Made by a program: the position numbers and the translations under genes
The notes under the pieces: generated by a model
The model's input: only the letters and a program-made list of their open reading frames with translations
The model's database searches: none
Told to the model about the DNA's origin: nothing
Shown here: piece after piece, positions 15,065 to 25,727 of the stretch
How the letters are laid out: every line of letters starts with the position of its first letter
How positions within the stretch are numbered: position 1 is the first letter of the stretch
Origin: Orenia metallireducens
GTDB taxonomy: Bacteria > Bacillota > Halanaerobiia > Halobacteroidales > Halobacteroidaceae
DNA length: 64,000 nt
Direction of reading: 5' to 3'
Assembly: GCF_001693735.1 (NCBI RefSeq)
Contig: NZ_LWDV01000008.1
Coordinates: forward strand, 1-64,000

Positions 15065-17686
15065 ATGAAGAGTAGTGAGGTAAGAGAGAAATTTTTAGAG
15101 TTTTTTGAAAGTAAGGGTCATAAAATACTAGCAAGTGCACCTTTAGTTCCTCAAGATGACCCTACTTTATTATGGATTAATGCAGGAATGGCTCCTTTTA
15201 AAGATTATTTTAATGGTAGTGCTATTCCACCTAAGCGTAGGGTAAGTACGTCTCAAAAATGTATCAGAACAAATGATATTGAAAATGTAGGAAAGACTGC
15301 TAGACACCATACATTTTTTGAAATGTTAGGAAACTTCTCCTTTGGAGATTACTTTAAAGAAGATGCTATTAATTGGGCTTATGAGTTTTTAACTGAATGG
15401 ATGAATTTTGATCCAGATAAATTTTGGGTATCTATCTATAAAGATGATGATGAAGCCTTTGAAATTTGGACTAAGCAAGTGGGCTTTCCTAAAGAGAGAA
15501 TAGTTAGAATGGATAAGGATGAGAACTTCTGGGAGATTGGAACTGGTCCTTGTGGTCCTTGTTCTGAGATTCATTATGATCGTGGAGTAGATTATGGGTG
15601 TAGTGATGACTGTAAATTAGGTTGTGACTGTGACCGTTATTTAGAGATTTGGAATTTAGTATTTACTCAATATAATAAGACTGAAGATGGTGAATACTTA
15701 GAATTGCCTAATAAGAATATAGATACAGGAATGGGGCTAGAAAGAATAGTATCTTTATTACAAGATGCTCCAACCAACTTTGAAACAGACCTATTTATGC
15801 CAATGATAAATTACATAGCCAATACTGCTGGTGTTGAATATGGAGAATCTAAAGAGACAGATATGGCTTTAAAGGTAATCGCAGATCATATTAGAAGTAT
15901 CAGCTTTGCAATTGCTGATGGTGCATTACCATCAAATGAGGGTAGAGGATATGTAGTAAGAAGAATTCTAAGAAGGGCTGTTCGTTATGCTAAGGTATTA
16001 GGTTTAGAGATTCCTTTCTTACATACAATTGTACCAATAGTTGTAGAGGTAATGGGAGATCATTATTCTCAATTGGTTGATATGGAAGAGCAGATTAAAA
16101 AGATTGTTAAGCAAGAGGAGATAAGATTTGAAGAGACTTTAGAGCAGGGGATGGATATCTTAGAAGAAGTAATTGCTGAATTGGAGAAGAAGGGTGCTAA
16201 GGTTATCCCTGGTGATAAAGTATTTACTCTTTATGATACTTATGGTTTCCCAAAGGAGTTAACTGAAGAGATAGCAGGGGAGCAAGGGTATGAGATTGAC
16301 CATACTGGCTTTGAAAAATCTATGGAAGAGCAACGAAAAAGGGCTAGAGCTGCTCGGCAGGATTATGATCAAGGGCATAGTGAATTAGAGTTATATAAAG
16401 CTATTAGAGAAGAGTTAGGACAGGATGAGTTTGTTGGTTATGAAGAGTTTGAAGTGGAGACAGAGGTCTTGTCTTTGGTTAAAGAGCAAAAAGAGGTAGA
16501 AATGATATCTGCTGGGGATAAGGCACAGGTTATCTTAGCTAAGACACCTTTTTACTCCGAAGGTGGTGGACAGGCTGGTGATAAAGGAATTATCATTAAT
16601 ACTACTACCCAATTAAGAGTAGTAGATACCCGTCAAATTGCAGAGATGACAGTTCATGAGGTTGAAGTAGAAGAAGGTCAATTAAAGGTCAATGACCAGG
16701 TTCAAGCAATTGTCAGTCAAGAGCAAAGGACTGCTACTGCTAGACACCATACTGCTACTCACTTATTGCATAAAGCATTAAAAGAGTTCTTAGGTGATCA
16801 TGTAAATCAGGCAGGTTCATTGGTTACACCAACTAGACTCCGTTTTGATTTTTCTCACTTTGAAGCTGTTAAAGACGAAGAGCTAGAGAAGATAGAGGCT
16901 AGAGTAAATGAACAGATCCTAGCTAATTTAGTTGTAGATGCTAAAGAGATGCCTATTAAAGAGGCTAAAGAGATGGGGGCTATGGCCTTATTTGGTGAAA
17001 AATACGGAGAAGAAGTGCGTGTTGTAACGGCTGGAGATTATAGTATTGAACTATGTGGGGGAACCCATGTTAGAGCTACAGGAGAGATTGGACTATTTAA
17101 GATTATCAATGAATCTGGAATAGCAGCAGGGGTTAGAAGAATTGAAGCTGTAACTGGTCATGAGGCATTAGATTATGTTAAGAAACAAGAAGAGACTATT
17201 CTTACTATTGCTGATAAATTAAAGTCTTCCCCTAAGGAAGTAGTAACTAAAGTAGAGAGCCTACAGTTACAGATTAAAGACTTAGAAAAAGAGCTTACAA
17301 GTCTAAAGGATAAGTTAGCATCCTCGCAATCTGGAGATTTAATCTCTGAAGCCCAAGATTTAAATGGTGTTAAGACTATCTTACACAGTATTGATGGTAT
17401 AGATGCTGATGGGTTAAGAAAGATGGGAGATAGCCTTAAAGATAAGTTGGATTCTGGTATTGTTGTATTGGCCTCTAAGGTAGATGGCAAGGTAATCTTC
17501 ATCGCTATAGTAACTAAGGATTTAGTTAAAGAAGGGTACCATGCAGGAAATATTATTCGTGAAGTTGCCAAAGTCGCTGGAGGTGGCGGTGGAGGTCGCC
17601 CTGATATGGCGCAAGCAGGTGGAAGTAGGCCAGAGAAAATAGAGGAAGCTTTAGCAAAGGCTAAAGAGTTAATATTAGCAGAATAA
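15065..17686 (+). CDS. alaS: Alanyl-tRNA synthetase
   Basis: An 873-residue class II synthetase of normal length. It has the catalytic core (ARHHTFFEMLGNFSFGDYFK near residue 79; GTGPCGPCSEIHYDRG), an editing domain with the zinc site (ARHHTATHLLH near 560; ELCGGTHVRATG near 661) and the C-terminal oligomerisation and glycine-rich C-Ala domain (AGGGGGGRPDMAQAG near 846). An extra Cys cluster (GCSDDCKLGCDCD, near 178) is typical of Firmicutes enzymes. GGGAGG precedes the ATG. The gene heads the conserved alaS-ireB-ruvX neighbourhood. Confidence 0.98.
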   Translation: MKSSEVREKFLEFFESKGHKILASAPLVPQDDPTLLWINAGMAPFKDYFNGSAIPPKRRVSTSQKCIRTNDIENVGKTARHHTFFEMLGNFSFGDYFKEDAINWAYEFLTEWMNFDPDKFWVSIYKDDDEAFEIWTKQVGFPKERIVRMDKDENFWEIGTGPCGPCSEIHYDRGVDYGCSDDCKLGCDCDRYLEIWNLVFTQYNKTEDGEYLELPNKNIDTGMGLERIVSLLQDAPTNFETDLFMPMINYIANTAGVEYGESKETDMALKVIADHIRSISFAIADGALPSNEGRGYVVRRILRRAVRYAKVLGLEIPFLHTIVPIVVEVMGDHYSQLVDMEEQIKKIVKQEEIRFEETLEQGMDILEEVIAELEKKGAKVIPGDKVFTLYDTYGFPKELTEEIAGEQGYEIDHTGFEKSMEEQRKRARAARQDYDQGHSELELYKAIREELGQDEFVGYEEFEVETEVLSLVKEQKEVEMISAGDKAQVILAKTPFYSEGGGQAGDKGIIINTTTQLRVVDTRQIAEMTVHEVEVEEGQLKVNDQVQAIVSQEQRTATARHHTATHLLHKALKEFLGDHVNQAGSLVTPTRLRFDFSHFEAVKDEELEKIEARVNEQILANLVVDAKEMPIKEAKEMGAMALFGEKYGEEVRVVTAGDYSIELCGGTHVRATGEIGLFKIINESGIAAGVRRIEAVTGHEALDYVKKQEETILTIADKLKSSPKEVVTKVESLQLQIKDLEKELTSLKDKLASSQSGDLISEAQDLNGVKTILHSIDGIDADGLRKMGDSLKDKLDSGIVVLASKVDGKVIFIAIVTKDLVKEGYHAGNIIREVAKVAGGGGGGRPDMAQAGGSRPEKIEEALAKAKELILAE

Positions 17687-17883: not shown

Positions 17884-18132
17884 ATGAGTGATTTTGATAA
17901 AACCATGATGTTTAGAATGGACAATGAAAAAGACAGTGAAGTTACTAAGGCATTAAGAGATGTTTATGATGCTTTAGAGGAGAAAGGATATAATCCAATT
18001 GATCAGATTGTTGGATACATATTATCAGGAGATCCTGCTTACATTACAAGTCACAAGCAGGCTCGTAGTAAGATGAGAAAGTTTGAAAGAGATGAAATAA
18101 TTGAAGAGTTGGTAAAGAATTATTTGAAGTAA
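17884..18132 (+). CDS. ireB: IreB family regulatory phosphoprotein
   Basis: 82 residues that match the IreB (UPF0297) family along their whole length, including the N-terminal threonine-bearing start (DKTMMFRM), the [20 protein letters not shown] core and the basic C-terminus. In Enterococcus, IreB is phosphorylated by the PASTA kinase IreK and tunes cephalosporin tolerance. Its usual neighbours alaS and ruvX are both nearby, but here three envelope genes separate it from ruvX. Confidence 0.95.
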
Positions 18133-18149: not shown

Positions 18150-20315
18150 ATGAAACGGACTATTATCATCCTATTAATAGCTGTATTTATTCTCTTTTCT
18201 ATACAGCTAAAATCTGAAGCCTTAGAGAAGAATTTTGTTCTTTTTGTTATGGATGGCGTCAGTTTATCAGAGATAAAGTCGTCGAATACACCAAATTTAG
18301 ATTCCTTAATAAAAGTTGGAGCTATTGCATTGACCAACACTAGAACAGCTGGCTCTTTGGAGCCAAAGGATGTTTATTTGACTATGGGTAGTGGTGATAG
18401 GGCTAGAACTGGCGTATCTGCTTACTTGAGTTTTAATGTTGATGAAGCCTATAAAAACACTAATGTCAAAGAGCTTTATTCGATGAGAACAGGTAGACAG
18501 GATTTTGAAGCTGAAATTGTTAATATAGAGTTGGCTAGATTGATATCAACTAATAATAAAAGTGACTATCAGGCTAAAGTAGGTCAACTGGCAGATAAAT
18601 TGGCTAAAGAGTCTTTAACTTTAGCTGTATTAGGTAATGCAGATATTTGGCAACAGCCAAGAAGGCATATAGCTATGTTGGGAATAAATAAATATGGTCT
18701 TATTTCTAAGGGGGATATTGGTCAGAAAATGCTCTTGGCATCTGATCAATACCCCTCTGCTTATATGACTAACCAAGATTACCTATTAGAAAAATTTGAT
18801 AAATTAATAGATCAGACTGATCTATTAATTATTGAATCTGGTGATACTTCTCGACTAGAAGCAGTTAAGAGTTTATTATTAGAAGAACATTTTAAATTAG
18901 AGAAGCGGAAAACAATTGAGCAAGTAGATAAGCTATTAGGGAAGGTGAGCAAGAGATTGGATTTTAATCAGGACTATCTATTTGTGGTTATCCCTACACC
19001 ATCTAAAAGAGCAGTTGCAAAAGGAGAGAAACTCTCTTTATCATTATTAGTAGGTCCTGATAGTAAAGGTTTGTTAAAGTCAGCTACAACAAAAAGAGCA
19101 GGCTTGATAAGTAACTTAGACATAGCACCGACTATCTATAGCTATTTAGGAGGAGAAGAGGAGACTTTTACAGGGTCAGCAGTAGAAGCTGTCCCTTCTA
19201 ATAAATCATTAGATTATCTAATTGGGTTAAATCAAAAGATACAAAAGACCTTTGCTTGGCGACCTATTTTAATTAAGGGGTTTATCTTATTACAGATTAT
19301 TACTCTTTTTTTGGTTGGTTTTATAATACTTTATAAAAAATCATCGGAAACTTTAAAGAAGGTAAGTAAATATCTTTTACTTACTCTGTTATGGATACCT
19401 TCCTTATTTCTGTTATCGAAATATTTTTTAGCTTGGAATTTAATTTTAGTAACTTTATTCTTTATCACTTTAAGCTTTTTATTGACTTATGGTTTATTAA
19501 AATTTAGTGAAAATGAATTAATTCATATCTTTGTTATCTCAACTTTGACTTGGGGTTTATTAGCACTTGACTTATGGACTGGTGCTAGACTGATAAAATT
19601 ATCAGTATTAGGATATTCTCCAGTAATTGGTGCCAGGTTCTATGGGATTGGAAATGAATTTATGGGAATAATTATTGGAGCAGGAATCATAAGTTTAGCC
19701 ATTTTCAAAGAGCTGAGGGAAGAATTTTCTCTCAGATTGCTATTATTATCTTTTCTATTTCTAATAGTAACGGTAGGTCATCCAAGCTTAGGAGCTAATT
19801 TTGGTGGTTTAATTACAACAGTAGTTGTTATTAGTGCTACTTATTTTTATTTAAAGGGTTATAACTTAAATTTAAAGGTATTATTTAAAATAGCTATTAT
19901 ACTTATAAGTATCGTCTCTTTAATTATCCTCTTAGATATTATGGGAACTGGTACTAATCAGACCCATCTTGCTAATACTATAGCAGAAATTAGAAGAGAA
20001 GGGTTGGGTACATTAATTAGTATTATCTATCGCAAAATCAGCATGAACTTAAAGCTATTAAGGTGGACAATCTGGACGAGGGTATTGTTATCCTTTGTAA
20101 TTATCTTGATTATCCTATTTAAAAAGCCAAGAGGGATAATTAGGGATATTGTTGATAGTTATAGTGACCTAGCTGCTGCTTTTAAAGCTTTAATAATAGG
20201 GAGTATAGTTACGATGATGGTCAACGATTCTGGTGTTGTTGCTGCTGCAACCTTACTCTTATTTCCTATCTTTACTTTGCTCTATTTGGTATTAAATAGG
20301 ATAAATAATAGATAA
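18150..20315 (+). CDS. Membrane protein with extracytoplasmic phosphatase-fold domain
   Basis: 721 residues: a signal or anchor (residues 4-24), a soluble domain of the alkaline phosphatase superfamily type (FVLFVMDGVSLSEI near residue 28; NTPNLDSLIKVGAIAL; closing with SNLDIAPTIYSYLGG near 323) and about ten C-terminal membrane helices (residues about 370-715). The strand where the superfamily keeps its Asp-His metal ligands reads VVIPTPSKR, so catalysis by the standard two-metal site is doubtful. The name of the family is unknown to me. It starts 17 bases after ireB and is probably co-transcribed with it. Confidence 0.7.
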   Translation: MKRTIIILLIAVFILFSIQLKSEALEKNFVLFVMDGVSLSEIKSSNTPNLDSLIKVGAIALTNTRTAGSLEPKDVYLTMGSGDRARTGVSAYLSFNVDEAYKNTNVKELYSMRTGRQDFEAEIVNIELARLISTNNKSDYQAKVGQLADKLAKESLTLAVLGNADIWQQPRRHIAMLGINKYGLISKGDIGQKMLLASDQYPSAYMTNQDYLLEKFDKLIDQTDLLIIESGDTSRLEAVKSLLLEEHFKLEKRKTIEQVDKLLGKVSKRLDFNQDYLFVVIPTPSKRAVAKGEKLSLSLLVGPDSKGLLKSATTKRAGLISNLDIAPTIYSYLGGEEETFTGSAVEAVPSNKSLDYLIGLNQKIQKTFAWRPILIKGFILLQIITLFLVGFIILYKKSSETLKKVSKYLLLTLLWIPSLFLLSKYFLAWNLILVTLFFITLSFLLTYGLLKFSENELIHIFVISTLTWGLLALDLWTGARLIKLSVLGYSPVIGARFYGIGNEFMGIIIGAGIISLAIFKELREEFSLRLLLLSFLFLIVTVGHPSLGANFGGLITTVVVISATYFYLKGYNLNLKVLFKIAIILISIVSLIILLDIMGTGTNQTHLANTIAEIRREGLGTLISIIYRKISMNLKLLRWTIWTRVLLSFVIILIILFKKPRGIIRDIVDSYSDLAAAFKALIIGSIVTMMVNDSGVVAAATLLLFPIFTLLYLVLNRINNR

Positions 20316-20340
20316 AATTATTATTTAAAAGAAGGAATTC

Positions 20341-20382
20341 GCCTCCTAATGGATAATTTTGTAATATTAGGAGGTGTTTTCT
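20341..20382 (+). promoter_or_regulatory. Hairpin that both resembles a terminator and buries a Shine-Dalgarno
   Basis: GCCTCCTAAT (20341-20350) pairs with ATTAGGAGGT (20367-20376) and is followed by GTTTTCT. The right arm is the only good ribosome-binding sequence for the downstream gene, so folding would hide it. Confidence 0.65.
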
Positions 20383-20388
20383 ACTGTC

Positions 20389-21636
20389 ATGATCTTTAAT
20401 AATTTCTTAAAGAAAGAGAAAGATTTAGATTATCAATATCGTATAGCTTTAGATATTGGTACAGAATATGTAAAAGCGATGATAGTAAAATTTAATCAGA
20501 ATAACTCTGAAATAATTGGATATAGTAGAGAGAAGCAGGATTATATTAACATGGAAGGTGGAGCTATCTCCAATATTGAAGAGGTAATTAAAATCTGTCA
20601 TAAAGCTATTGAACAAGCTATAGCAATGGCAGATTATAGTCCTAGTGAAATTGTAATTGGAATTGCTGGTGAATTTGTCAAAGGGATTATTACTCAGATG
20701 AATTATACTAGATCTATACCTAAAAAGAAGATTAAGAGAAAAGAGATAGATGCTTTGGTCAAGAAGGCTCAAAAATTGGCTTTAAAATCTGTTCAGCAGG
20801 AGTTGCTAGAGGATATAGGGTTAGAGAATATTAAGGTGGAATTGGTCAATTCTTCTGTAGTAGAGATGAAGATAGATGGTTATAAAGTTACTAATCCTGA
20901 ACAGTTTCAAGGAAAGAATTTAGAAGTAACTGTATTTAATACCTTTGCTCCTTTAGTTCATGTCGGTGCTTTGGAGACAATAGCTTTAAGATTAGGATAT
21001 AATTTGGTAGGCATAATTGCAGAACCTTTTGCTATTGCTAAAAGTATTATGAATAATGAAGCCTATGAATTTGGGGCGATTGTGATAGATATTGGAGGAG
21101 GAACTACCGATATTGCTCTAATTAGAAATGGGGGTATAGAAGGGACTAAGATGTTCAGTTTAGCAGGTCGGGATTTTACTAAAAGTTTGGCTAGAAGTTT
21201 TAATTTAACCTTAGAAGATGCTGAGAGGTTAAAGGTTGCTTATTCTAGTTCAGAGAGTGATGAACCTAATAAAGAGATTGAAGCTGTTTTAAAGCCTGAT
21301 CTTGATTTATTATACGAAGGAATTGAGCTAGCTTTAGCTAGTCTAGCAAAATCAGAGGCTTTGCCTCAAAGAGTATATCTATGTGGTGGAGGAAGTGCTT
21401 TAAGTGGTTTGTTTGATGGAATTAGGCAGAGAAAGATGTATGAAAATCTACCTTTTTTCAAAAAACCTGAGATAAGATTATTAGATGCTGAAGATATTAA
21501 AGGGGTTGAAGATAAGGTAAACCTATTAAGAGGTGCAGAGAATGTAACACCAAAGAGTTTGGCTTTACAGTCGACTAAGGTTAAAGAAGTTGAAGAGAAT
21601 AATATATTTCAGAAGATAGTGGCTAATTTTGGTTAG
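20389..21636 (+). CDS. FtsA/PilM-like actin-fold ATPase
   Basis: About 415 residues of the actin/Hsp70 ATPase fold. Phosphate 1 reads ALDIGTEYVKAMIV, phosphate 2 reads VIDIGGGTTDIALI and the adenosine loop reads LCGGGSALSGL. An SHS2-like insertion is expected at residues about 85-195, as in FtsA and PilM. It is not the division FtsA, because no ftsZ is near and the next gene is an unrelated bitopic membrane protein. ATG at 20389 and GTG at 20374 are both possible; AGGAGG at 20369 fits the ATG only with a long spacer. The ATPase may assemble at the membrane with the next gene's product. Confidence 0.75.
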   Translation: MIFNNFLKKEKDLDYQYRIALDIGTEYVKAMIVKFNQNNSEIIGYSREKQDYINMEGGAISNIEEVIKICHKAIEQAIAMADYSPSEIVIGIAGEFVKGIITQMNYTRSIPKKKIKRKEIDALVKKAQKLALKSVQQELLEDIGLENIKVELVNSSVVEMKIDGYKVTNPEQFQGKNLEVTVFNTFAPLVHVGALETIALRLGYNLVGIIAEPFAIAKSIMNNEAYEFGAIVIDIGGGTTDIALIRNGGIEGTKMFSLAGRDFTKSLARSFNLTLEDAERLKVAYSSSESDEPNKEIEAVLKPDLDLLYEGIELALASLAKSEALPQRVYLCGGGSALSGLFDGIRQRKMYENLPFFKKPEIRLLDAEDIKGVEDKVNLLRGAENVTPKSLALQSTKVKEVEENNIFQKIVANFG

Positions 21637-21651
21637 TTAGGGGTGATAAGA

Positions 21652-23172
21652 TTGGAAAATTATATTAAACTTTATATAGACCCTGATGAACCACTGAATT
21701 CATTTCTAGATAAGATTAAGTCAGCAGAAGAAGATAAGGTAGTAGTTATAGTACATAGAAAGTCACCAATATTTGTCGGTCAGGTAAATATAGAGTTAAT
21801 TAAAAAATATGCAAAAGAGGCAGAGAAAGAGTTAATTTTTATAACCAATAATAAGAAGATTAAAAATATATTGTCAAGGGTAGGTTTTGAGGTCTATTCT
21901 AAAGTAAAGGAGTTTGAAGATAATCAAGATGAGGAAGTGGAGGATATAAATGAATCAGAAAGAGAGTCCTTATTTACTTTAGATCAATATTCAACGGCTA
22001 AAAGAAAGTCTAAGAAGAGAAGAAAGCTAAAGAAGGGATTATTTTTTGCTACCGCATTATTAGTAGCGATAATTTGGGTTTATTTTGCTTTTCCAGTAAT
22101 AACTGTTGAGATTCAACCAACTATCAAAGATAAAGTATTAATCAGTCAGATTAGAGCTTTAGAGAACCTTCCAACTATAGATTGGGCTACTAGTACAATC
22201 CCATTAATTAAGAAAGAAGTAAACTTAGAAGAGGAGCTAGTCTTCCAAAGTACTGCTACTAAAGAGATTGGTGTTAAGAAAGCAACAGGAGTTTTAACTT
22301 TGATTAATAGCAATCGTAAGAATATAACCATACCTGCAGGGACCTTAGTCAGTACAAGAAATGGGGTCAAATTTAAGACTAAAGATAAGGTGGTTGTTCC
22401 ATCATCAAAATTGGAGAAGTTTATGAATGTAGTTGTAGGTGTAGATGCAGGAAGAGCTGAGGTCAATATAGAAGCATTATACAAAGGGGTGCATGGGAAT
22501 ATCAGTAAGGGGAGGATAGTCAACTTTGTTAACAAGGATTATCCTGTGAAGATAGTTAATCCAGAAGCAACTTATGGAGGGCAGAATCAACTGGTAAAGG
22601 TAGTCTCTCAAGCTGATTTGGAGAATGCTTTAAGTCAAACAAGGGACAAGCTCTTACAGAGAGCAAAGGAAGATTTAAAGAACAAATTTGACTCCAATCT
22701 AATCTTTTTTAAAGATGAAATTAAGGTTGCTGAGCCTAAGCTTTATACCAATAATAAAGTTGGAGAGATAACAAATGAGTTAGTAGTTAAAGGAGAAGTC
22801 AAAATTACAGGTTTTGCAGTAGAAAAAAAAGGATTAAAGAGCTTAGTATTTAAATTATATAAAGATAGCCTTGAAGATAAATTTGTCCTTAACAGACCAC
22901 AAATTACTATTAAAGAGGTTAAAATTGATAAAGTAGCCCAAAATGAAATTAATTTCAGAGTCAAGAGTATGGGTCAAGTTGTAGGTAAGATTAATAAAGA
23001 GTATATTGTTAATCAGATATTAGGTAAAAGAGTGGAAGAGGCTAAAGCATTAATGGATAGTATGTTAGAGATAGATAGTTATCAGATAAAACCTGTTAAT
23101 CAAGTAAACTTACCACAATTTAAATATGGAATCAATTTAGTGGTTGATGGAGAGAATGGTTATAGTAATTGA
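21652..23172 (+). CDS. Bitopic membrane protein with baseplate J/gp47-like domain
   Basis: About 506 residues: a cytoplasmic alpha/beta domain (residues about 1-95; VVVIVHRKSPIFVGQVNIEL), an acidic linker and a basic stretch (KRKSKKRRKLKK), one membrane helix (residues about 130-152), and a long outer part with baseplate-J-like sequence (VNIEALYKGVHGNISKGRIV near 283). Similar cytoplasm-TM-baseplate J proteins are known in several bacterial phyla without known function. TTG start at 21652 is set by TAGGGGTG 7 bases upstream. It sits 15 bases after the FtsA/PilM-like gene, a layout like pilM-pilN. Confidence 0.7.
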   Translation: MENYIKLYIDPDEPLNSFLDKIKSAEEDKVVVIVHRKSPIFVGQVNIELIKKYAKEAEKELIFITNNKKIKNILSRVGFEVYSKVKEFEDNQDEEVEDINESERESLFTLDQYSTAKRKSKKRRKLKKGLFFATALLVAIIWVYFAFPVITVEIQPTIKDKVLISQIRALENLPTIDWATSTIPLIKKEVNLEEELVFQSTATKEIGVKKATGVLTLINSNRKNITIPAGTLVSTRNGVKFKTKDKVVVPSSKLEKFMNVVVGVDAGRAEVNIEALYKGVHGNISKGRIVNFVNKDYPVKIVNPEATYGGQNQLVKVVSQADLENALSQTRDKLLQRAKEDLKNKFDSNLIFFKDEIKVAEPKLYTNNKVGEITNELVVKGEVKITGFAVEKKGLKSLVFKLYKDSLEDKFVLNRPQITIKEVKIDKVAQNEINFRVKSMGQVVGKINKEYIVNQILGKRVEEAKALMDSMLEIDSYQIKPVNQVNLPQFKYGINLVVDGENGYSN

Positions 23173-23186
23173 AGGGAGTAACTAAG

Positions 23187-23597
23187 ATGAAGATTATGGG
23201 CTTAGATGTTGGAGATGTGAGAACAGGAGTTGCAGTAAGTGATGCCTTAGGTTGGACAGCTCAGGGTAAAGAGGTAATAAAATCTAAAGGCTTAGAGGAA
23301 GATATAGAATATATAGCTTCTTTAGTGGAAAAATATAATGTAGAGAAGGTTGTAGTTGGGTTACCTAAAAATATGAATGGTTCCTTAGGACCTAGAGCTG
23401 AGAAGGTGCTAAACTTTGTGGAGAATTTAAAGGACAGGATAGATTTGCCGGTAATAACTTGGGATGAAAGGTTGTCTACAGTGGCAGCTGAAAGAACTTT
23501 AATCCAAGCAGATTTAAGTAGAAAGAAGAGAAAAGAAGTTATCGATAAGATGGCAGCAGTAGTGATTTTACAAAATTATTTAGATAGTATAAGTTGA
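23187..23597 (+). CDS. ruvX: Holliday junction resolvase-like RuvX (YqgF)
   Basis: 136 residues of the RNase H-like YqgF family, with IMGLDVGDVRTGVAVSD at the N-terminus, VVVGLPKNMNGSLG in the middle and WDERLSTVAAERTL near residue 92. The acidic residues of those three segments form the metal site. YqgF acts in 16S rRNA 5'-end maturation in E. coli and as a junction resolvase in some bacteria. The ATG at 23187 follows AGGGAG; the reading frame overlaps the end of the preceding gene upstream of this start. Confidence 0.93.
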   Translation: MKIMGLDVGDVRTGVAVSDALGWTAQGKEVIKSKGLEEDIEYIASLVEKYNVEKVVVGLPKNMNGSLGPRAEKVLNFVENLKDRIDLPVITWDERLSTVAAERTLIQADLSRKKRKEVIDKMAAVVILQNYLDSIS

Positions 23598-23655
23598 TAA
23601 TTGGTATTAATTATCAATTATTAAGTAACGAATAATTAAACTAGAGGTGATTAGA

Positions 23656-23934
23656 ATGGCAGAAAATGAAGGTGTAATTAAGTTGATCGATGAAGAAGAA
23701 GGTATTGTTGTATTAGAGGAGTATGATGGAGAAGAGAATCGTTATGAGATAGTAGTAGTTCTTGATATAGATGATGATACCTATTTAATTATAGTACCTG
23801 AAGATGATGATACAGAAGAAGGTTTTGCTCTTAAAGTAGTTGAGAATGAAGATGGTGATACCTTCTATGAACCAGTAGTCGATGAAGAGGAGCTAATGAG
23901 GATAGAAGAAGAATTAGCTAAGGAAGATGAATAG
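23656..23934 (+). CDS. DUF1292 family acidic protein
   Basis: 92 residues, very acidic, with the DUF1292 pattern (IKLIDEEEGIVVLEEYDGEE near the start; YLIIVPEDDDTEEGFALKVVE in the middle; EPVVDEEELMRIEEEL at the end). Function is unknown. In Firmicutes this gene normally follows ireB and ruvX, as it does here. ATG at 23656 has AGAGGTGA just before it. Confidence 0.9.
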   Translation: MAENEGVIKLIDEEEGIVVLEEYDGEENRYEIVVVLDIDDDTYLIIVPEDDDTEEGFALKVVENEDGDTFYEPVVDEEELMRIEEELAKEDE

Positions 23935-24725: not shown

Positions 24726-25727
24726 ATGCAAGTTAAAAGATCAGTTAAATACTTCAGTTGGCTAATGTTGTTGTTATTTATTATGAATTTAATCTTCTTT
24801 AGTTACGGACGACAGTTATTAGAGCCTGTTAGTAGTAAAGCAATAGCAGATGAGATTATTGAAATAGAATCAGGTTCCTCCCTAGAGAAGGTTACTAATC
24901 AATTAGATGAAAAAGGTTTAATTAAAGATCCTTTAGCATTTAAAGTTTATTTAAGGATTAGAGGTTTAGCAACTAAGATACAAGCAGGGTATTATAAGTT
25001 AAGCTCTAATATGTCAGCTATTGAGATTGCGGACAAGCTAGTTAAAGGTAAAGCAGCAACTTATAAAGTTACTCTGCCAGAAGGAATAACTATAGAGGAG
25101 CTAGGAGATCTTTTAGCTCAAAGAGGTTTGAATAAGGAACGTTTTTTATCTTTGGCTAAAGATAAGGAATTTAATTTATTCTCTACACCTTCTACTGTTA
25201 AGTATAATTTAGAGGGATTTTTATTTCCTGAAACTTATCAGATTCCTTATGGTGCTGATGAAGAAGAGATAATAGATATTATGTTAGCTGAATTTAAAAG
25301 AAGGGTTAAAGCTTTAGAAGAAGAGATTGAAAAGAGTGAATATAGTCTATATGAGATTATTACGATTGCTTCTTTAATTCAGGCAGAAGCCCAGATAGAA
25401 GATGAAGCTCCAATAATAGCAAGTGTCATCTATAATCGGTTGAATAGAGGGATGAAGTTACAGTTAGATGCTACGGTACAGTATAGTCTACCAGAGCGTA
25501 AAAGTAGGCTATTATATAGTGACCTTAAAGTTGATTCAGAGTATAACACTTATCAGAATTCAGGGTTACCTCCAGGTCCTATCAATAATCCTGGAATTGA
25601 TATGATTAAGGCTGCTTTAAATCCTGAAACTACCGATTATTTATATTATGTTGTTACAGAAAAGGGTAGACATACCTTTACTAAGAGTTATCAAGAGCAT
25701 TTAGAGGTACAAAGAGGATTAAAGTAA
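24726..25727 (+). CDS. mltG: Endolytic transglycosylase MltG (YceG)
   Basis: 333 residues: one N-terminal membrane anchor (residues about 9-28), a LysM-like segment (residues about 40-115) and the YceG catalytic domain. Family hallmarks are LEGFLFPETYQIP (near 157), ASLIQAEAQ with the catalytic Glu (near 215), LQLDATVQYSL and GLPPGPINNPG. It cleaves nascent glycan strands at the inner membrane and sets their length. It heads a five-gene run (mltG, methyltransferase, U32, udk, DUF4911) that is conserved in Firmicutes. Confidence 0.95.
   Translation: MQVKRSVKYFSWLMLLLFIMNLIFFSYGRQLLEPVSSKAIADEIIEIESGSSLEKVTNQLDEKGLIKDPLAFKVYLRIRGLATKIQAGYYKLSSNMSAIEIADKLVKGKAATYKVTLPEGITIEELGDLLAQRGLNKERFLSLAKDKEFNLFSTPSTVKYNLEGFLFPETYQIPYGADEEEIIDIMLAEFKRRVKALEEEIEKSEYSLYEIITIASLIQAEAQIEDEAPIIASVIYNRLNRGMKLQLDATVQYSLPERKSRLLYSDLKVDSEYNTYQNSGLPPGPINNPGIDMIKAALNPETTDYLYYVVTEKGRHTFTKSYQEHLEVQRGLK

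Follow-up and report, generated by a model that had tools for sequence, protein, structure and literature searches.

A conserved pair of an FtsA-fold actin-like ATPase and a bitopic baseplate-J-like protein as a candidate envelope module in Orenia metallireducens and other bacteria

The closest described systems join an actin-like ATPase to a bitopic membrane protein: in FtsA-FtsN, an ATPase of the FtsA fold is matched with a partner that has a cytoplasmic N-terminus and an outer domain, and in PilM-PilN the gene of the actin-like ATPase is directly followed by that of the bitopic protein. Here, we describe a pair of genes with these same properties in a 64-kb window of the Orenia metallireducens genome (class Halanaerobiia, phylum Bacillota; the window is the whole stretch analysed, positions 1 to 64,000 of contig NZ_LWDV01000008.1). 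The first encodes an FtsA-fold ATPase and the second a bitopic protein with a baseplate-J-like outer part, hereafter called J. We suggest, with a probability of roughly 0.55, that the two form an ancient envelope module of the kind "actin-like ATPase plus bitopic partner", in which the ATPase would cluster or position J; within this known kind, the comparisons given below indicate that ATPase-J is a separate, unrecognised branch. Unlike FtsA, the ATPase is not linked to ftsZ and scores under the FtsA cut-off, and J combines a folded alpha/beta domain in the cytoplasm with an outer part that is baseplate-J-like, where FtsN has a SPOR domain. Unlike PilM-PilN, the pair has no PilO or pilus genes nearby, its ATPase falls under the PilM cut-off, and its outer fold is a different one.

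Two further comparisons concern J and the envelope. The outer beta domain of J (residues 211-315) is shared with the phage baseplate J/gp47 wedge and with the beta domain of GlxA, whereas J differs from baseplate J/gp47 in being a membrane-anchored cellular protein with a cytoplasmic domain and without tail genes nearby. OmpM, Mla, and the other envelope bridges of diderm Firmicutes (PMC10628300, PMC10665443) belong, like the pair, to Omp85-bearing Bacillota, but the family searches that were done gave no similarity to them, and ATPase-J is also present in phyla without Omp85. No family covering the ATPase family or full-length J was found in Pfam, NCBIfam, or PHROG, and literature searches found no description of the pair or of J. 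The two genes and the parts of J are as follows, with the likely starts set from ribosome-binding sites and homologues.

20389..21636, + strand: FtsA-fold actin-like ATPase (open reading frame opening at GTG 20374, 420 aa; likely start ATG 20389)
21652..23172, + strand: J, bitopic baseplate-J-like protein (open reading frame opening at GTG 21643, 509 aa; likely start TTG 21652)
21655..21927, + strand: cytoplasmic alpha/beta domain of J, residues ~5-95 in the 509-aa numbering (model; weak STAS-like match)
22036..22086, + strand: single transmembrane (TM) helix of J, residues 132-148, N-in (model, charge distribution)
22273..22587, + strand: outer beta domain of J, residues 211-315, phage baseplate J/gp47-like (Pfam, structure comparison, phrog_6 baseplate wedge)
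22600..23148, + strand: outer C-terminal alpha/beta part of J, residues 320-502 (model; local baseplate alignments)

We counted both genes in 61 relatives of the class, 398 genomes of Bacillota, 145 of Patescibacteria, and 101 of Chloroflexota, with J in Bacillota counted at E < 1e-30. Across all sampled genomes of the three phyla, 128 of the 129 that bear the ATPase also bear J, and in 119 of them J lies directly downstream. Among the class relatives, J is present in 21/61, always just 5' of ruvX, and the ATPase in 18/61, all 18 with J. The 398 Bacillota genomes hold the ATPase in eight cases, all with J, and J in 47, of which 39 are without the ATPase; the ATPase implied J in 4/4 cases in family f65 and in 7/7 further named genomes. 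In Patescibacteria, the ATPase is found in 74 genomes, J in 141, and both in 73 (68 of the 141 J genomes are without the ATPase), and J is directly downstream on the same strand in 67/74 ATPase genomes. In Chloroflexota, the corresponding numbers are 26, 69, and 26, with the pair adjacent by coordinates in 25 and J without the ATPase in 43/69. These counts show a conserved partnership whose dependency is one-sided, with J often alone. The original prediction, which had the two genes occurring together and took frequent occurrence of either without the other as evidence against the pair, is borne out on the side of the ATPase and fails on the side of J, which commonly stands alone in all three phyla. 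It should be mentioned that 14 weaker J matches in Bacillota, which span only about residues 215-320, look like ordinary phage-type J proteins.

The joint occurrence gives hypergeometric values of 2e-8 in Bacillota, 7e-6 in Chloroflexota, and 0.29 in Patescibacteria, to be read with the caution that related genomes are not independent; the last value is uninformative because J is nearly universal there. Adjacency is the stronger evidence for pairing. The cytoplasmic domain of J is present in 48/48 loci with the ATPase and in 30/35 without it (one contig-truncated J was left out). Both the ATPase and this N-terminal domain are missing from G157 (f65), whose sister genus has both, and from G023, where the 721-aa-type gene discussed below is also gone and the outer part of J is kept. 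In G053, J is present and the ATPase is gone. In G016, the first ~52 codons of the ATPase are all that is left (L039 6953-7111), between a 721-aa-type gene and an intact J; this remnant looks like a recent natural deletion.

The middle gene had been called FtsA/PilM-like, and Pfam agrees (FtsA 63.4 bits, cut-off 31.8; PilM_2 39.5, cut-off 27). Its model (mean pLDDT 84.7) finds its best fold match in FtsA (7q6f, Z 39.9, 353 residues), followed by PilM (Z 31.5) and, over about 260 residues, MreB (Z ~24) and actin (Z ~22). In the homologue alignment, the phosphate- and adenosine-binding motifs DIGTE, DIGGGTTD, and CGGGSAL are intact; a search with PADLOC gave a weak match to the ATPase motif only. 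The N-terminus is amphipathic and a short helix ends the protein; in Chloroflexota and Patescibacteria this terminal helix is basic and amphipathic (moments 0.7 and 0.6), with a weaker moment in Halanaerobiia. Neither equivalog model is reached, as the window ATPase scores 128.4 bits (105-138 in the other phyla) against the cut-off of 175.85 of TIGR01174 for FtsA, and 41.8 bits against that of 133 of TIGR01175 for PilM. The true FtsA of the host genome (390.9 bits with TIGR01174) is encoded at C6:295718 between ftsQ-like and ftsZ genes, and its true PilM (218.2 bits with TIGR01175) has pilN- and pilO-like genes on its 3' side, which rules out that the window ATPase is the host's own FtsA or PilM. 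The ATPase gene of the window has no ftsQ/ftsZ linkage, and both there and in the loci of relatives the downstream gene is J and not pilN/pilO. Because true ftsQ-ftsA-ftsZ and pilM-pilN-pilO runs exist elsewhere in the genome, we consider ATPase-J to be a separate system. A profile of the ATPase (A4) scores the family above 500 bits in the named set and FtsA/PilM at 152 or less, with nothing between, and in the tree the ATPases fall into one group each for Halanaerobiia, f65, Chloroflexota, and Patescibacteria, all of them apart from FtsA. By these scores and this tree, the family is a clade of its own, apart from FtsA and PilM.

Two alternatives start from these same likenesses. The ATPase may be a second FtsA for division that binds FtsZ or the divisome, with J as an FtsN-like activator. 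The best fold matches, which include an FtsA crystallised with FtsN 1-29, the 128 bits with TIGR01174, and the C-termini of the Chloroflexota and Patescibacteria proteins, which are basic and amphipathic, speak for this; however, the score stays under 175.85, the true FtsA is encoded next to ftsQ and ftsZ at another place in the genome, the family forms a separate clade, and it is frequently lost in relatives, unlike a core division gene, so that we regard this explanation as unlikely. The other alternative is a divergent platform for type IV pili or type II secretion, in which the ATPase would be a PilM and J would stand in the place of PilN. The layout of an actin-like ATPase followed by a bitopic protein is the same, the PilM_2 score lies above its Pfam cut-off, and the PilM fold matches well; on the other hand, the TIGR01175 score is far under its cut-off, a real pilM-pilN-pilO run exists elsewhere, no gene for PilO, PilC, or PilB was recognised next to the pair in the window, and J has a baseplate-J-like outer part. 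A pilus platform is therefore quite improbable.

Some side observations concern the ATPase family. The host genome encodes a further FtsA-like protein of 719 aa (G000:C9:813764-814918), which scores 89.5 against the TIGR01174 cut-off of 175.85 and is also present in many members of the class. In the single-contig genome G014 (L037 9980-11083), the ATPase is 367 aa long with a disrupted C-terminus and has lost the adenosine-binding motif, which is either a pseudogene or a sequencing error. An apparent fusion of the ATPase with its neighbour in G524 was rejected as artefactual, the product of a run of Ns that separates alaS from the ATPase.

The layout proposed for J, a cytoplasmic part, a TM segment, and a baseplate J domain, stands up well: Baseplate_J (PF04865) matches beyond the single TM helix with 26.0 bits (cut-off 21.1), 14/21 homologues match at E <= 0.01, and the charges (10 K/R before the helix, two after) predict an N-in topology. 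The model (mean pLDDT 82.3) shows an alpha/beta domain, a disordered linker, the TM helix at 132-148, and a beta-rich outer part, with a relative domain placement that is not reliable because the pTM is 0.49. Phage Mu gp47 (Z 12.6, rmsd 1.7 A over 89 residues) and the beta domain of GlxA (Z 12.5) both superpose on residues 211-315; local matches to baseplate proteins extend to residue 502, while the whole does not superpose and has a large overall rmsd. Residues 1-98 are at best weakly STAS-like (4xs5; Z 7.7, rmsd 3.7 over 97 residues), a value in the range of common alpha/beta arrangements. This N-terminal domain is conserved in Bacillota, Patescibacteria, and Chloroflexota. Four Chloroflexota genomes (G616, G644, G653, and G662) have six to nine J-like matches each, many in frames of ~650-1000 aa, which are expanded large paralogues, and Patescibacteria such as G472, G473, G509, and G565 have, besides the long ATPase-adjacent J, a second J-like protein of ~380-390 aa without the cytoplasmic domain.

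The Baseplate_J and phrog_6 matches, together with the baseplate structures at the top of the fold search, raise the question of whether J is a captured piece of a phage or contractile-injection baseplate, with the cluster as its remnant or part. We consider this extremely improbable: sheath, tube, and other tail genes were not recognised beside J in the window, and the neighbours there and in relatives are housekeeping genes; J contains a TM helix as well as a cytoplasmic domain, follows the descent of the phyla, and is present in 141/145 Patescibacteria; and ordinary phage-type J proteins were matched separately, weakly, and only over about residues 215-320. A phage or injection-system remnant was rejected on the housekeeping neighbours and the phylum-level descent.

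The remaining features of the locus are as follows.

15065..17686, + strand: alaS, alanyl-tRNA synthetase, upstream anchor of the conserved block (open reading frame; 5' of ATPase-J in Halanaerobiia, Chloroflexota, and most Patescibacteria loci)
17884..18132, + strand: ireB (PF06135, 131.6 bits, E 1.2e-38)
18150..20315, + strand: putative accessory polytopic membrane protein, 721 aa (open reading frame, Pfam, homologue alignments)
20341..20377, + strand: predicted hairpin over the ribosome-binding site of the ATPase (AGGAGGTG), overlapping a 16-codon mini-ORF (open reading frame)
23187..23597, + strand: ruvX, downstream anchor (PF03652, 166.5 bits, E 5e-49)
23647..23934, + strand: DUF1292 gene (PF06949, 37.6 bits)
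24726..25727, + strand: mltG, endolytic transglycosylase, downstream anchor (PF02618, 309 bits; after J-ruvX in many Patescibacteria and Chloroflexota loci)

The 721-aa gene, the ATPase, and J are real genes in one operon-like run. The gaps between ireB, the 721-aa gene, the ATPase frame, and the J frame are 17, 58, and 6 bases, the ATG of ruvX lies 14 bases past the end of J, and the Pfam matches confirm that the three + strand frames lie between ireB and ruvX, with DUF1292 next. The same prediction regarded the three genes as inserted into a conserved ireB-ruvX block, a claim that does not survive the comparison with other phyla, as Chloroflexota and Patescibacteria have the same pair in the interval from alaS to ruvX-mltG. 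When named genomes were scanned with the ATPase alignment, orthologues at 31-44% identity were found in Chloroflexi, Limnocylindrales, Howlettbacteria, Moranbacteria, Saccharibacteria, Dojkabacteria, and other Patescibacteria; J is directly after the ATPase in 8/10 of these loci, and the order is often alaS-ATPase-J-ruvX-mltG, seen in both Patescibacteria and Chloroflexota. With Bacillota, this block is shared by three phyla. In the other J-bearing families of Bacillota, J lies in the alaS/ireB-ruvX interval in 36 loci, mostly without the ATPase. Because the pair or J occupies the same interval across phyla, the arrangement is old and not an insertion. In the two loci of these families that were read out, J and ruvX are separated by an aldo/keto reductase-like gene (L161 5564-6526 and L183 8210-9157) whose product ends in a ferredoxin-like cysteine cluster.

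The trees tell a similar story. Patescibacteria and Chloroflexota join at 100% SH-aLRT in the ATPase tree, and the J tree is similar except that two Chloroflexota rows fall on the Bacillota side; f65 is not joined to Halanaerobiia, which means that Bacillota retained or acquired the ATPase on two or more occasions. The grouping of both trees by phylum argues for old descent over recent transfer, and an old presence with many losses would be the simplest reading.

Several observations weigh against a working module of the ATPase and J. In G462 (Patescibacteria), alaS-ATPase is followed by a secF-like gene and J is missing, and in L088 and L089 the two genes are unlinked, with J elsewhere in the genome. 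The N-terminal domain of J, kept in 30 loci without the ATPase, must have another use or partner. The correlated loss of this domain and the ATPase amounts to two to three independent pairs (sign test p 0.25-0.5), a trend in the expected direction with too few pairs for significance. The block itself says little about function, because alaS, ruvX, and mltG are often neighbours anyway. As an alternative, J and the ATPase may act separately, with no working link, in an old and slowly rearranged alaS-ruvX-mltG neighbourhood, for which the conservation of the whole block and the persistence of J without the ATPase in many lineages can be cited. As the dependency is almost without exception (128/129) and extends to the cases of unlinked genes (L088 and L089), this explanation also appears decidedly improbable.

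The pair had further been proposed to serve as a diderm envelope machine or a trans-envelope tether. In Bacillota, Omp85 is present in 101/398 genomes and in 47/47 J genomes, with 54 Omp85 genomes without J; the host genome itself has four Omp85 matches. The hypergeometric value is 4e-33 for genomes and 2e-15 for families (20 J families within ~35 Omp85 families of ~145), both inflated by shared descent. The association with diderms therefore holds within Bacillota, but not beyond it, as the pair is found in Patescibacteria and Chloroflexota without Omp85 (0/40 and 1/40 genomes tested, the single positive genome of Chloroflexota may be a binning error). From these counts, an outer membrane as a requirement for the pair is ruled out, and the pair is no diderm-specific tether.

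The 721-aa protein has an N-terminal signal/TM segment, an outer domain to about residue 365, and a multi-TM C-terminal half with strikingly conserved motifs (GARxYGxGNE, GANFGG, and NDSGVVAAAT). Its description as a phosphatase-fold protein could not be upheld: Pfam Metalloenzyme scores 15.6 bits, below the cut-off of 24.3, and 3/20 homologues match it at E <= 0.01 (best 2.7e-4), and in the alignment the outer domain has conserved Asp residues and no conserved His. An alkaline-phosphatase-like fold is possible; if present, the protein is probably no normal metal phosphatase. Its gene adjoins J in Halanaerobiia, and in families f31, f43, f103, f111, and f135, all Omp85-bearing, it adjoins J without the ATPase. 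In the loci of Patescibacteria and Chloroflexota that were examined, it was missing next to the pair, against the view of the three genes as a fixed set; by this distribution, it is an accessory in Omp85-bearing Bacillota, outside the core pair.

Upstream of the ATPase, a 16-codon mini-ORF (MDNFVILGGV..., start 20349) is overlapped by the hairpin CCTCCTAAT...ATTAGGAGG at 20341-20377. The hairpin is also predicted in L031 and L032 of the same genus, and a similar start (ATG-GAT-AAT-xxT-GTA-like) is found again in family relatives, sometimes in the ATPase frame. Translational control of the ATPase by these elements is possible.

Following the logic of FtsA-FtsN and PilM-PilN, we propose how the ATPase-J module might work. 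The amphipathic ends of the ATPase would hold it at the cytoplasmic membrane from the inside; it would probably form short FtsA-like filaments and, depending on ATP, would bind J at its N-terminal alpha/beta domain, so that J becomes clustered or positioned. The TM helix of J would carry this work outward to the baseplate-J-like outer part, and, by analogy with phage baseplates, the outer parts may line up next to one another or form a ring at the wall or envelope. The ATPase would thus set where or when J works, and J would be able to work without it; because J is so often alone, it must also have an ATPase-independent role. The 721-aa polytopic protein is a frequent addition in diderm Bacillota, where it probably works together with J at the outer face of the membrane. 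A bolder and doubtful extension is that J is a core and so far undescribed envelope machine of Patescibacteria and their relatives, an outward baseplate-J-like ring steered from within by a dedicated third branch of the FtsA/PilM type. It would go back to an early ancestor that Bacillota, Chloroflexota, and Patescibacteria had in common, and monoderm Bacillota would have lost it along with the outer membrane.

Meheust et al. (PMC6744442) placed four unannotated families with envelope families in CPR and Gram-positive bacteria, and J may be among these families. J probably does something central, because it is present in 141/145 sampled Patescibacteria, whose genomes are pared down to ~1 Mb. 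The ATPase-J pair would offer a handle on the poorly known envelope of the Patescibacteria. The ATPase family would add a separate actin-like branch beside FtsA and PilM, and J illustrates a baseplate-J-like domain in a cellular membrane protein. Within Bacillota, its strict overlap with Omp85 may provide a second marker for the debate on the loss of the outer membrane.

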